From the NCBI GenBank assembly GCA_947089855.1, contig CAMUML010000036.1, positions 1 to 47,161 on the forward strand: a stretch of DNA of 47,161 bases, in the 5' to 3' direction. Shown piece by piece: positions 19,993 through 29,775 of the stretch. This DNA comes from an uncultured Eubacterium sp. (lineage in GTDB: Bacteria > Bacillota > Clostridia > Lachnospirales > Lachnospiraceae). The stretch's first letter is position 1, and every line of letters starts with the position of its first letter. Under the pieces are notes generated by a model, which searched no databases, had not been told where the DNA came from, and was given only the letters and a program-made list of their open reading frames with translations. The position numbers were made by a program, and so were the translations under genes.

Positions 19993-20949
19993 TTATTCAT
20001 CTGCTTTAATATATTTATCAAGGATGGACTGGATGGTACCGTCTTCCTTCAGCTGGGCAACTGCGTCATTGACTGCAGCAACCAGGCCGTCATTTTCTTT
20101 GGCAATTGCTGCCGCATAATCTTCTACCGCAAATTCTGTTTCCAGTATTTTCAGCCCTTCTGTGGATTTCACATAAGAAAGCGCTGGCTGGTTGTCGATA
20201 ATAACCGCGTCTACTTTACCCTGTTTTAACGCCATCACTGCATCTGCGCCTTTGTTATACTGGTCAACGCTGTCTTCGCCCAACGATTCTTTTACCAGCG
20301 TATCGCCTGTTGTCCCAAGCTGCACGCCTACTTTTTTCCCATCCAGGTCGTCAATGCCCTGAATATCAGAATCTTCCGTTACAATCACCACCTGGATGCC
20401 AGTAGCATAAGTATCCGTAAAATTAACCGATTTTAACCGGTCCGGGGTTACCGACATTCCAGCCAGGCCCATATCAGCCTTGCCCTGCTGTACGGCAATT
20501 AGGATAGAATCAAACTCCATATCTTCAATTTTCAACTCCAGCCCCAGTTTTGCCGCAATTGCCTCTGCAATTTCTACGTCAATGCCGACGATCTCATTCC
20601 CTTCATAATACTCATACGGTGGGAAATAGGCATTGGTCGCCATTGTTAAGACACCTTCTGATACTGTTGTAAACTCTGTGTTACGCTTGTCCCCGGCTCC
20701 GTCGTCGGCTGCCGTACCTGCTCCAGCTCCATCGTCGGCTGCCGTACCTGCTCCAGCTCCGTCGTCGGCCGCCGTATCTGACCCGGCATCGTCCGGTTTT
20801 GTATCTGCATCCCCATCCGAAATTTCTGCATTTACACCGCTGCCAGCAGAACCTGCCTTGTCATCGGCCTCGCTGCCGCACCCGGCCAGCATCGCTGCCA
20901 TAAGCGTGCCGGCAGCAACCGCAGCGAGAAACTTCCTCATTTTTTTCAT
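19993..20949 (-). CDS. Amino acid ABC transporter substrate-binding lipoprotein
   Basis: 318 residues. A lipoprotein signal ends at MLAGC (Cys24). Residues about 30-90 are an Asp/Gly/Ala-rich spacer containing a tandem repeat. The SBP_bac_3 domain follows at about 95-315, with LTMATNAYFPPYEYYEGNEI, GIDVEIAEAIAAKLGLELKI and DMGLAGMSVTPDRLKSVNFT, typical of polar amino acid binders. The unusually long acidic spacer may hold the domain away from the membrane across the wall. Its promoter and structured leader are at 21020-21091. Confidence 0.93.
   Translation of the reverse strand: MKKMRKFLAAVAAGTLMAAMLAGCGSEADDKAGSAGSGVNAEISDGDADTKPDDAGSDTAADDGAGAGTAADDGAGAGTAADDGAGDKRNTEFTTVSEGVLTMATNAYFPPYEYYEGNEIVGIDVEIAEAIAAKLGLELKIEDMEFDSILIAVQQGKADMGLAGMSVTPDRLKSVNFTDTYATGIQVVIVTEDSDIQGIDDLDGKKVGVQLGTTGDTLVKESLGEDSVDQYNKGADAVMALKQGKVDAVIIDNQPALSYVKSTEGLKILETEFAVEDYAAAIAKENDGLVAAVNDAVAQLKEDGTIQSILDKYIKADE
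20701..20780 (-). repeat. 30-bp in-frame tandem repeat in the binding-protein linker
   Basis: Two full and one two-thirds copies of a 30-bp unit (20701, 20731, 20761) differ at only a few positions. Each encodes a ten-residue AGAGTAADDG unit. The period is a multiple of three, so copy number could change without breaking the frame. Confidence 0.8.
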
Positions 20950-25010: not shown

Positions 25011-27584
25011 TTAAACCACTTTATTCATACAACAATGCTTATATTTTTTCCCGCTTCCACAAGGGCATGGGTCATTTGGGTATACTTTCTTTTTCGACCG
25101 TGTCTTTGGTTTATTGGCAGCGGAATCGTCTTTATTTGTCCCAGTCACTTTTGCAACTTCTTCCCGTTCTACTTTTTCTTCGATCCGGACATGGTATAAC
25201 AGCCGCAGCGTATCTTCCCGCATATTCTGCGTCATAGCATCGAACATTTCAAAGCCCATCAGCTTGTACTCAACCAGCGGGTCCCTTTGGCCATATGCCT
25301 GTAGGCCAATGCCCTGGCGCAGCTGGTCCATATCGTCCAGATGGGCCATCCATTTACGGTCAATCACTTTTAGCAAAATGACACGCTCCAGCTCACGGAT
25401 TGCTTCCGGCTCCGGAAATTCTGCTTCTTTTTCTTCATACAGCTTGACCGCCTGCTCTTTCAGTTTATGCCTGACCTCTTTGCTGTCTTTGCAGTCTTCC
25501 ATATTTTCAGCCGTTAACGGCTCTAATGGGATTACCGGCAGCAGCAGCTGGTTTAATTCGTTAAAGTCCCACTCTTCCCTACTGACATCATCGGATAAGC
25601 AGGTGTCTACCGTAGCTTCCACAAAATCCACGATCATTTTATAAATAGAATCGCGCATACTTTCGCCATTTAAAACTTTCATGCGCTCTTCATATACGAT
25701 CTCCCTTTGGTCATTCATTACCTGGTCATATTCCAGCAGGTTTTTACGGATGCCAAAGTTGTTGCCTTCAATCTTCTTTTGCGCTTTTTCTATCGCATTG
25801 GTCAGCATTTTATGCTGGATTTCTTCACCTTCTGCTACTCCAAGCGCATTAAATACATCCATCAGCTTTTCGGAGCCAAACAAACGCATCAGGTCGTCTT
25901 CCAGTGAAATATAAAATTTTGACTCGCCTGGATCGCCCTGACGTCCGGAACGGCCGCGCAGCTGGTTGTCAATACGCCTGGACTCATGGCGCTCTGTACC
26001 GATTATTTTCAGCCCGCCTGCTTTGCGCGACTCATCGTCCAGTTTAATATCCGTACCACGCCCCGCCATATTCGTAGCGATCGTAACAGTGCCATGTTCG
26101 CCGGCATGGCTAACGATTTCTGCCTCCTGCTCATGGAATTTTGCATTTAATACCTGATGCTTGATTCCCCTGCGGCTTAACATTTTATCCAACAGTTCCG
26201 AAATTTCAATCGTAACGGTACCAACCAGTACCGGCTGCCCCTTTTGATGGCTGGCTTCCACATCGTCACAAACCGCGTTGAATTTCTCTTTCATTGTTTT
26301 ATACACGGCATCCTGATGGTCTTCACGGATAACCGGCATATTGGTTGGGATTTCTATAACATCCATCCCATAAATATCACGGAACTCCTGTTCTTCTGTC
26401 AATGCGGTACCCGTCATGCCAGCCTTCTTTTCAAATTTATTAAAGAAATTCTGGAACGTAATGGTTGCAAGCGTGCGGCTTTCCCTTTTGACCTTTACAT
26501 GCTCTTTTGCTTCGATCGCCTGGTGCAAACCGTCAGAATAGCGGCGGCCTGGCATAATACGCCCGGTAAACTCATCGACAATAAGCACCTCGTCATCTTT
26601 CACTACATAATCCTTATCGCGGAACATCAGGTTATGCGCCCGCAGGGCCAGAATAATATTGTGCTGGATTTCCAAGTTTTCTGCGTCCGCAAGGTTTTCA
26701 ATCTTAAAAAATTGTTCTACTTTTTTGACACCTTCTGCGGTTAGGTTTACTACCTTGTCCTTTTCATTTACAATAAAATCACCATCTTCCTGCGCTTCCA
26801 CGCCCATGATGGCATCCATTTTTGTATATTCCCCGTTGCCTTCCCCACGCTTCATCTGTTTGGCCAAGATGTCGCAGGCTTCGTAGAGCTTGGTAGATTT
26901 CCCGCTTTGCCCGGAAATAATAAGCGGTGTACGCGCTTCGTCAATTAAAATGGAGTCGACCTCGTCCACAATTGCAAAATGGAGCCCGCGCTGGACAAGC
27001 TGCTCTTTATAAATGACCATATTATCCCTCAGGTAATCAAACCCGAGCTCATTGTTTGTCACATAGGTTATATCGCATGCATATGCCTCACGGCGTTCAT
27101 CATTATCCATGCTGTTTAAAATACATCCGACCTTCAACCCCAAAAATTCATGGATCTGGCCCATTTCATCTGCATCACGCTGTGCCAGGTAATCATTGAC
27201 TGTCACGATATGGACACCTTTGCCCTCCAGGGCATTCAAATAAGAAGGCATCGTTGCTACCAGCGTTTTACCTTCCCCTGTCTTCATTTCCGCAATCCTG
27301 CCTTGGTGCAGGACAATGCCGCCCATCAGCTGTACCCGGTACGGCTCCATGCCAAGCACGCGCACAGAAGCTTCCCTTACCACAGCAAACGCTTCCGGCA
27401 AAATATCATCCATTGTTTCGCCGTCATTTAACCGCTTTTTAAATTCCGATGTTTTTTCCCTTAATTGCTCATCCGACATTGCCTGCATAGTAGGGCGCAG
27501 GTCTTCGATTTTATCTACAAGCGGTTTGATCCTTTTTAACTCACGTTCACTGTGGGTACCAAATATTTTTTCAAATGCTCCCAT
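25011..27584 (-). CDS. secA: Preprotein translocase ATPase SecA
   Basis: 857 residues. It is the motor of Sec export at the inner membrane face. Nucleotide-binding domain 1 has the Walker [21 protein letters not shown] and the DEAD-like [19 protein letters not shown]. Domain 2 has [11 protein letters not shown] and [20 protein letters not shown]. The C-terminus carries the zinc-binding [13 protein letters not shown] that contacts SecB or lipids. The ATG follows ATAGGAGA. The promoter is at 27650-27678. The upstream region is shared with the divergent repeat-array transcript. Confidence 0.97.
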
Positions 27585-27847: not shown

Positions 27848-27876
27848 TTGACAATTCTATTTTTGTTTGATATTAT
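27848..27876 (+). promoter_or_regulatory. Strong promoter of the divergent repeat-array transcript
   Basis: TTGACA (27848-27853) and TATTAT (27871-27876) are spaced by exactly 17 bp. Directly upstream is a run of T and A tracts (27815-27847), resembling an UP element of highly expressed stable-RNA genes. No protein gene of normal size follows. The first transcribed bases would be a CAACA-rich, unstructured stretch starting at about 27883. Confidence 0.75.
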
Positions 27877-27882
27877 TACTTC

Positions 27883-29133
27883 AACAAAAACAACACAGCA
27901 ACACAACAGCAACACTTGACCAGCCGTTGACAGCTTAATCAGTGAACTGTGAAAGGGGTGAGTCCACCAAAATATATGTGATACATCCCATAATTTTTAG
28001 AAACGAGGTATTGACCAATGATTTGATGATTTGTTGATAATGCTGGATAGCTGTTATCCAAAATTTATCAAAAATAAGTGAAAGGGGCATGGAGCTCCAG
28101 ACAGAACAGGTTTAGCCTGGTTCTTAATTTAGAAGAATCTGACGAAAGCGGGGTACAGTCCAATGGGAGCGGAAACTTGAACCTAATTTCCATCCGAAAT
28201 TTACAGAAAGCAGGTACAGTCCAATGGGATGTTTTATCTAACCTTTGTTTTGATTCATGACTCTAAAGAAAGCAGGTACCGTCCAATGGGATAGAAGAAA
28301 GAAAGCCTATATTTAGTTTCGTATAATTAACGAAAGAGGTACAATCCAATGGGAACGAAATCTTGAATCTATGTTTGCATTATAATTTATAGAAAGCAGG
28401 TACAATCCAATGGGCTTTATATTTTAAACCTCTCATTAATTTAAAAACGGAAAGAAAGCAGGTATAATCCAATGGGAACCATATTTTAAAACTTATGTTT
28501 GATGTGAAAATCTAACGAAAGCAGGTACCGTCCAATGGTATAAAAATATTAGGATTATAAATTTGGAAATATCTGGTTTAGAACAATTGGCTTTCGTCCA
28601 ATGCGGACAGAAAACTTGGGAAGCGAAGATAAGCTGAAAGTGAAGATAAAACCTTCTTCTTGGTTTAACATTGATGTTTCCATCAATACTATCCGATACT
28701 CAAATAAAACGCAGCTTAAGGATAAGGAAACCGTACTGATGTCGGCATAAACGTTAAATTCAACTAAGATGGCAAAGGGCACTGGCTTTTCAAAACAATC
28801 CAGCAAAAAGGGAGGGCACTCCAATGCATGGTTTACACAAGAGAGAAGTTTTCAGCTTAGTTACATAATTCATAAGATACCGTGAAAGGAGCCTCGGTAG
28901 TGGTCAGAGATTCAGTCGAGTACATTCATATATGGATTCAGATCAAACGTATTCAAGGAAAACAAAAATGGATTATGAATGGGCTAAACTGAAGGCATCT
29001 ATCATAGAAAGCACCTACATTTCATCCTCTTTTAGATATTCGTTGTAAAATTGTAATAGAAAGGCATGGTATAGGCCAATGGATATATCAGTCTAAAAGG
29101 CGCCAGCAAATGCATCTGCATAGTTGGCGCCTT
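27883..29133 (+). ncRNA. Putative ~1.25-kb repeat-array RNA, family not recognised
   Basis: Between secA and the PilZ gene lie 1.55 kb with no convincing protein. From the promoter at 27848 to the hairpin at 29097-29133, the plus strand carries recurring 'GAAAG-n-GGTA-n-TCCAATGG' motifs. There are seven regular copies at 28144-28538 and diverged copies at 27951, 28000, 28080, 28598, 28821, 28883, 29007 and 29059. The 62-bp period is not a multiple of three and each frame is broken within one or two units, so the array cannot encode one repeated protein. Alternatives are a chain of tiny translated frames, a protein-sponge RNA, a DNA-level binding array, or a decayed repetitive gene. It is A+T-rich compared with its neighbours. 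Transcription is inferred from promoter and hairpin only. Confidence 0.5.
28144..28578 (+). repeat. Seven-unit imperfect tandem repeat, period 60-64 bp
   Basis: Units begin at 28144, 28206, 28268, 28332, 28392, 28454 and 28517. The 23-25 bp core is GAAAGCAGGTAC, two variable bases, then TCCAATGGGA. The 37-40 bp between cores are diverged but still alignable, with a shared TTGAA/TTTAA/TCTAA about 12-15 bp after the core and AT-rich ends, so they are not CRISPR spacers. CCAATGG positions are 28160, 28221, 28283, 28346, 28407, 28469 and 28532, which is steps of 61, 62, 63, 61, 62 and 63. Confidence 0.9.
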
Positions 29134-29136
29134 AAT
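29095..29136. terminator. Hairpin ending both the repeat-array RNA and the PilZ transcript
   Basis: AAGGCGCCA (29097-29105) and TGGCGCCTT (29125-29133) are perfectly complementary and enclose a second stem, ATGCA/TGCAT. On the minus strand it is followed by CTTTTAG, just after the PilZ stop; on the plus strand by AATTATT. It lies between convergent transcripts, where a shared terminator is expected. Confidence 0.75.
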
Positions 29137-29142
29137 TATTGG

Positions 29143-29775
29143 CTATTCTTGTTTTTCCCGTAATTTGTCAGCCATATAATAGCCAAGGTTTTCTTCTGCA
29201 TTCGCTATGCGGCAGCCATAAAAAAAACCGCCGTCCTTTAGCTCCTTAACCCAGACCATCCGGGCTTCCACCCGTATCTCTTCATCCTCTTCCCGATTTT
29301 CATCTATAATCTGGATATATAAATGCTTCAACTCCTGTGCCTCAATTTTAACCGGGCTTTGAAACCCTATCCCGTTGACACATAAATCATGCACGAGAAT
29401 ATCCAGCCCTGCCGGCGTATTGCTCACTTTCAGCTTGCCTGGCAAATTTAATACTACCCGTTCCACTTTACGGCGGTTGACCCTTACACTGTTTTTCGGG
29501 GCTGCCAGCGCATGGTACTGCTTTCCATCCACCGTCCTGCGCTGGATCCTGCAATTTGTCCACGCTTTTGGCATATCCTGGCCATCTTCATAGATCGTAA
29601 TGATTTGCACATTTGGACTAGAAAAATCAACTACCTGGCCATCGTGGCGGATAAGGTCTAACAAGACTACATCCGAACGTACCCCAGCCACCTGCGCGTT
29701 TACATCTACAAGCAGCGTCTTATGCTTACAGCGGATTATCACTTTTTGGCCTTTTTTTAACTCTGATATTTTCAA
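29143..29775 (-). CDS. PilZ-domain protein with YcgR-like N-terminus
   Basis: 210 residues. Residues 1-90 form a YcgR-type beta-rich domain (MKISELKKGQKVIIRCKHKT). Residues about 97-205 are a PilZ domain with the Arg motif VNRRKVERV and VHDLCVNGIGF at the second c-di-GMP motif, which is normally (D/N)xSxxG. Here Cys replaces Ser; Asp and Gly are kept. Related proteins act as c-di-GMP brakes on the flagellar motor. Binding is likely but should not be assumed with the substitution. The ATG follows GGAGGTGG. It has its own promoter at 29821-29849. Confidence 0.85.
   Translation of the reverse strand: MKISELKKGQKVIIRCKHKTLLVDVNAQVAGVRSDVVLLDLIRHDGQVVDFSSPNVQIITIYEDGQDMPKAWTNCRIQRRTVDGKQYHALAAPKNSVRVNRRKVERVVLNLPGKLKVSNTPAGLDILVHDLCVNGIGFQSPVKIEAQELKHLYIQIIDENREEDEEIRVEARMVWVKELKDGGFFYGCRIANAEENLGYYMADKLREKQE

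Follow-up and report, generated by a model that had tools for sequence, protein, structure and literature searches.

A predicted RNA gene of serial Shine-Dalgarno boxes and mini-ORFs beside secA in Lachnospiraceae, with related RNAs in other Clostridia

Which gene, if any, lies between secA and pilZ in the 47,161-nucleotide stretch of DNA from an uncultured Eubacterium sp. that was analysed here as a whole (the window)? Pfam assigns secA to positions 25011-27584 on the minus strand and a PilZ gene to 29143-29775; between the two come, from left to right, a promoter, a CAACA-rich transcript start, a repeat stretch of about 1.2 kb and a hairpin, and pilZ is convergent. A preliminary description had seen no normal protein gene in this region. 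This holds on the plus strand, where the longest open reading frame (ORF) seen in the repeat array has 49 codons (28601-28750) and follows a degenerate repeat unit. A minus-strand ORF of 89 amino acids (28555-28824) overlaps part of the array. As judged from sequence, positions 27848-29133 are a stand-alone predicted transcription unit, an undescribed RNA gene adjoining secA.

The sigma-A type promoter TTGACA-N17-TATTAT is present exactly as previously proposed at 27848-27876 on the plus strand. Its boxes and spacing are identical in 13 of 13 genomes, namely the window and 12 congeners (an extra 14th row, lacking the promoter, is what remains of the 3′ part of the broken G006 locus). A promoter scan of the region found 9 promoter-like sites against 6.9 expected, and therefore only the best match, the array promoter with 11 of 12 positions, and its conservation carry weight. 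An A/T-rich stretch lies upstream, and a CAACA-rich transcript start with the inferred start site follows (27881-27917), and each of the 13 genomes keeps TCAACAAA behind its -10 box; both features had been correctly read from the sequence before. The terminator hairpin (29097-29133) lies immediately 3′ of the last stop codon and covaries across species, which bears out the proposed hairpin end, though its U-tract is poor (CCTTAATTATT). It was flagged neither by a consensus scan nor by a separate terminator search.

About 15 motif copies had been claimed along this length. The sequence GGTANNNTCCAATGG, with up to one mismatch, has 8 matches in the window, all in the array, where 0.28 are expected, and 8 were reached in 0 of 100 shuffles. 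The array is thus real, but about 12 units can be counted by eye and 15 requires doubtful copies. With three mismatches there are 41 matches against 40.65 by chance, and the weakest copies are therefore indistinguishable from noise. Seven strict copies are spaced 61-63 nt apart, TRF gives a 62-bp period, and the copies are 62-85% like the reference over 34 nt. Motif matches beyond the locus, at 13 loci, resemble coding sequence or chance by eye. The window also contains a 30-bp tandem repeat of 2.8 copies (20696-20780) within an ORF at 19993-20949.

Most units consist of a Shine-Dalgarno (SD)-like box, GAAAGnGRGGUAnnnUCCA, followed in the window genus by AUG and usually an ORF of 2-5 codons (peptides of mini-ORFs are written here without the stop that ends them). 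The earlier view of a purely noncoding RNA is not supported: the repeat combines an SD box with either a tiny ORF or a stop in frame, and the array closes with a mini-ORF that directly adjoins the terminator. All units are on the plus strand. Unit 1 (27951-27969) carries the 16S-tail complement GAAAGGGGTGAGTCCACCA without a start codon and forms the strongest 16S-tail duplex in the secA-pilZ gap (-24.7 kcal/mol). Unit 2 (28000-28026) has an SD box and ATGATTTGA, encoding MI; together they form a module (27951-28029) that is common to other genera (alignment A4; match of model R2 with E 3e-11, the window row being within the model). A degenerate unit 3 without a start codon (28080-28099), identified by eye, has a 16S-tail duplex of -17.9 kcal/mol. 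Next come units in which the SD box precedes MGAET (28144-28180), MGCFI (28206-28241), MG (28268-28294), MGTKS (28332-28366), MGFIF (28392-28427), MGTIF (28454-28489) and MV (28517-28543), and a degenerate unit (28580-28750) that retains GTCCAATG, has lost its SD box and leads into the 49-codon ORF. The following SD box and 14-codon ORF, MHGLHKREVFSLVT (28805-28868), are kept in frame at 13-15 codons in 13 of 13 genomes; this ORF ends in TGA, TAA or TAG across the 13 genomes, and its 3′ half is also part of the stem of a conserved core domain (28842-28999). The last unit (29059-29096) combines GAAAGGCATGGTATAGGCCA with MDISV, an ORF of 5-6 codons of the form M[DE].. in 13 of 13 genomes. Number and spacing of units differ between species, and ORFs read on from CCAATG in congeners include MKTEV, MGTTI and MERII.

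Are the boxes and stops placed as translation would have them? Paired with the 16S tail GGCUGGAUCACCUCCUUUCU, taken from congener G005, 10 window units have a mean SD duplex of -11.0 kcal/mol, compared with -11.5 for 29 window ORFs taken as genes (best SD among candidate starts) and -2.3 for 1000 random 22-mers. Within the genus, reading from 88 of 111 array ATGs meets a stop within 6 codons, compared with 51 and 19 for the two other frames; six candidate units, four of them real, are left out of this count. Among other ATGs of the same transcripts, the control, the figure is 92 of 243. For array ATGs of the window alone it is 9 of 10 (binomial p 0.001), with related units counted as independent in these frame tests. 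Counted per genome, frame 1 equals or beats frame 0 in G008, G006 and G001.

In other genera, 80 units from 23 loci (three doubtful places included) have ATG where the start is expected in 28 cases, TTG in 6 and something else, including CCA, AAG, AAA, ACA, CCG and ATC, in 46; translation of every unit is therefore not general. Of the 34 units with a start, 27 have a stop within 5 codons in the frame set by the SD box, as against 11 and 7 in the two other frames; for the 46 start-less units the counts are 40 as against 11 and 17, and 33 of these 46 have the stop exactly three codons on. Start-less units with a frame-set stop imply either initiation at odd triplets or a UAA that is part of an RNA motif. 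The SD strength of -12.1 kcal/mol in other genera is partly circular, because the regular expression selecting these units demands a G-rich box. Since the alternation of GACC and GUCC departs from the 16S tail, pairing with 16S rRNA beyond the SD core is claimed for unit 1 only.

The array is conserved in close relatives. A DNA search of 60 relatives found it in 12 of 12 congeners (G001-G012), in the genus of Eubacterium plexicaudatum, with one weak match in another genus (G018). As far as the contigs extend, secA, array and pilZ keep the same arrangement and direction, with a convergent pilZ in each of the 12 congeners; in G010, G006 and G001 the contig stops within the locus or one of its flanks. 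In GTDB genomes a degenerate core pattern matched 11 contigs, from E. plexicaudatum ASF492, a cultured strain and member of the Altered Schaedler Flora, and from ten uncultured assemblies labelled Eubacterium, Eubacteriaceae or Lachnospiraceae; this pattern had no match in IMG/VR. NCBI places E. plexicaudatum in Clostridia, Eubacteriaceae, and labels two congener records Lachnospiraceae; the family surveyed here is presumably GTDB Lachnospiraceae. In G018, what looks by eye like the start region of rnr (L080, 4980-5030) shows a likeness to the array's last unit (AATAGAAAGGCATGGTGTAGCAAATGGACA) that is probably fortuitous.

The best-conserved part in the 13 genomes is the core of about 160 nt near the 3′ end, which is predicted to fold into a single long stem with 97.9% of cells paired, against at most 48.7% in slid controls. 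Outside the core, the notion of a large structured RNA in the preliminary description finds weak support. The terminator hairpin covaries; in the core most pairs are invariant, and its covariation score, equalled in 33 of 500 shuffles, does not stand out clearly from them. Inter-unit hairpins and core covariation are weakly supported. A coding function of the core domain (MDSDQ..., VVRDS...) was rejected, as the reading frames are broken in several genomes.

Related arrays occur in the family both next to secA and at other sites. The survey of shorter relatives took in 21 further genera: 19 from a two-unit pattern and two from the pattern GAAAGNGRGGTANNNNCCRATG. The latter pattern matches the window, congener G011 and the two further genera, which makes 4 of 299 family genomes; in these two genera a promoter-like start followed by three units and, at a hairpin, a last ORF (MEIVV, MDSIV) were recognised by eye. 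The two-unit pattern occurs in 46 of 397 family genomes and 41 of 334 genera, against 8 genomes for the reversed control, some of the 46 being chance, coding or other tandem repeats (e.g. G204, G332, G321, G020). Of 30 loci extracted, 22 from the 19 genera were examined; 18 of these have a last mini-ORF directly before a hairpin, and in L100 and L103 it lies further on; a promoter was visible only at loci whose first unit was in view. Most internal units elsewhere in the family lack a start codon and retain the in-frame stop. Three loci outside the genus (L101, L103, L114) are divergent from secA, and the secA site is therefore shared, not obligatory.

Alignment A4, which covers units 1 and 2, connects the window to other genera. 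Under strict filters, the model R2 derived from it finds matches in 26 of the 246 genomes searched in the order and in 18 of the 291 searched in the class, the window included; weaker matches include some that are chance by eye (L142, L149, L173, L175). In other families, a 5′ mini-ORF encodes MR, MRK or MFR and a 3′ ORF encodes LDIKxEQ[KE], in the form LDIK[SIN]EQ[KE]. An all-codon pattern for LDIKxEQ[KE] with its stop was found in 13 of 391 class genomes, in 9 genera, against 1 for the reversed control. SD box, ORF and hairpin are present in 12 of these 13 matches, L180 being the one without, and nine of the 12 loci show a 5′ unit; the other three, L183, L184 and L189, were viewed at the 3′ end only. 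The LDIK codons could be conserved by the terminator arm alone, because the end of this ORF also forms that arm; GAT and GAA are invariant there.

In the window the stop of the last mini-ORF abuts the terminator hairpin, and at nearly all inspected loci the last unit has a start and a mini-ORF whose stop reaches or enters the 5′ foot of the terminator. Such an ORF next to a terminator, no more than 1 kb from a unit pair, was found at 36 of 70 loci, where L106 and L143 are doubtful, L102 and L128 are one locus and a few extra rows are spurious; the same search among the 12 congeners found it in 9. Strong unrelated cases of an ORF at a terminator (hairpin of -17 kcal/mol or better) number 2 in 344 kb of strand. 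Among loci chosen for encoding MDSIV with its stop, 7 loci of 6 genera differ in wobble bases and stops. As exceptions, the last ORF extends 10 codons into the hairpin in genus g177 and, by eye, 13 codons in L144, and L106 and L119 have no clear last ORF. The g177 loci L130, L131 and L135 lie near a tRNA-Leu(CAG) gene, and their last ORF begins TTGGGATCG and stops only inside the terminator. In L097, a second promoter-like site and SD box stand in tandem 3′ of the first terminator, with another last ORF, MDNPV, at a hairpin.

We know of no described RNA with this architecture. Rfam 15, with families such as CRISPR repeats, 6S and riboswitches, gave 0 matches at gathering score in the window and in 6 and 8 further loci; loosening the cutoff to E 5 added nothing but matches that fall far short of gathering scores, so the impression that no known class fits is upheld. 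No account of the RNA was found in open-licence literature, preprints lying outside this scope, an absence that is weak evidence. OLE, ROOL, GOLLD and raiA are long bacterial RNAs without a host gene, none of which matched at gathering score. CsrB/CsrC and RsmX/Y/Z are stand-alone sponge RNAs with a repeated short motif; the array is alike in its repetition, but its motif is an SD with a frame-set stop. Minigenes (lambda bar, the E-peptide of 23S rRNA) share the unit layout of SD, AUG, 2 to 5 codons and stop, but the known ones are single, whereas the array is serial and conserved. Leader peptides of attenuators have an SD, a short ORF and a stop beside a terminator hairpin. The array likewise has a short-ORF stop close to its terminator, but its units are serial and no co-oriented gene follows in the window, the next gene, pilZ, being convergent. 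An SD that has no part in translation stabilises its transcript, with 30S binding as the presumed cause, as described for STAB-SD in a cryIII reporter, for ermC and for ompA (PMC7509114). In other genera 46 of 80 units have an SD and no start codon after it; in the window genus most units have one. The cases cited are parts of an mRNA (PMC7509114), whereas the array RNA consists of many units throughout, carries tiny ORFs and serves no gene downstream.

What might such an RNA do? We give roughly even credence to the reading, drawn from sequence features, that it engages ribosomes repeatedly without making protein, as a ribosome decoy or translation sensor. The SD boxes would pair with the 3′ tail of 16S rRNA and recruit 30S subunits or 70S ribosomes at many points, and ribosomes would be released almost at once at the frame-set stops, which would leave the RNA ribosome-covered yet without a protein product. 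It could thereby divert initiating ribosomes, as a decoy, or sense how far ribosomes are available; 30S binding could stabilise it, as in STAB-SD elements, and the last ribosome could affect its 3′ end. The earlier label 'sponge-like' may be right in spirit. More tentatively, and with somewhat less confidence, we propose a widespread undescribed class of Clostridia RNAs acting on the translation machinery, in which serial SD/mini-ORF units may bind, test or hold ribosomes and a final terminator-fused mini-ORF may let translation decide the fate of the 3′ end. The related RNAs in other Clostridia suggest an undescribed way to handle or sense ribosomes. If ribosomes load on the units, many Clostridia carry an RNA gene devoted to ribosome engagement, with no protein made. 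Such a system would be a testable one for the buffering of free ribosomes or the sensing of initiation capacity, and would account for unannotated intergenic regions, one of them in E. plexicaudatum ASF492.

The start-less units, which retain box and stop at a rigid distance (exactly three codons in the 33 units above), also fit a purely structural noncoding RNA, in which GGAGGUAC[AG]G[AU]CCAnnn...UAA would bind a protein or RNA and the likeness to SD and stop would be incidental. Conservation of the core domain in 13 genomes and the shared module of units 1 and 2 point the same way. We nevertheless consider this reading unlikely, as the stops move by whole codons and use TAA, TAG and TGA, and across genera and families the start, the peptide pattern and the stop of the last ORF are all preserved. 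Decidedly unlikely is the idea that the tiny peptides are the product, as formyl-Met penta- or nonapeptides acting on the ribosome or as signals: MDSIV, MDISV, MEITV, MEIVV and LDIKSEQK do recur, but internal peptides vary and are often absent, and last peptides differ widely among genera (MYDPG, MKLQEIH, MGNEF). The strong start-less SD boxes in weakly folding, A-rich surroundings would suit an RNA that soaks up C-rich small RNAs directed against SD sites, the boxes serving as bait, comparable to the reported RoxS sponge of B. subtilis; this leaves the in-frame stops and the last ORF unexplained and appears quite improbable.

The 62-bp period could reflect a DNA-level tandem repeat, CRISPR-like or a protein-binding array, without RNA function. 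This is very improbable, as strand-specific promoter, frame constraint and terminator are all conserved, unit number and spacing vary between species, the copies are not near-identical, and no CRISPR or other Rfam family matched at gathering score. A CsrB/RsmZ-like sponge for CsrA is scarcely credible and fails as a general function: several units contain GGA and CsrA was found in 14 of 30 bearers (genomes with the RNA or its pattern, some of them incomplete drafts), but window units with CAGGT have no GGA in the box, and CsrA (PF02599) was not found in 16 of the 30, including the single-contig G267 and G354 and the window's own draft genome.

A hairpin relay, in which post-stop ACCC pairs with the next GGGGU, was dropped as a main claim. 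Relay hairpins look convincing at single units, an inspection that included five of the six units left out of the 111-unit count, but cognate pairs barely beat non-cognate ones: -3.94 against -3.36 in other genera (19 of 5000 shuffles) and -6.24 against -5.69 in the genus (47 of 5000), while in the window alone they are no better (4297 of 5000). Three doubtful units and pairs outside the length range were omitted from this pairing test.

The LDIK-type RNAs may be homologous to the window RNA, on the basis of one unit motif and the layout, or could be a separate family. Those at L170-L190, from other Clostridia families, are about 200-550 nt long, and several carry ACACGRCGGTG. A viral origin of the array was rejected, as one IMG/VR contig carries a short form (L127) and none the core pattern. 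L113 and L127 are short forms from two different sources, each adjoining a convergent gene that reads, by eye, like gpmI.
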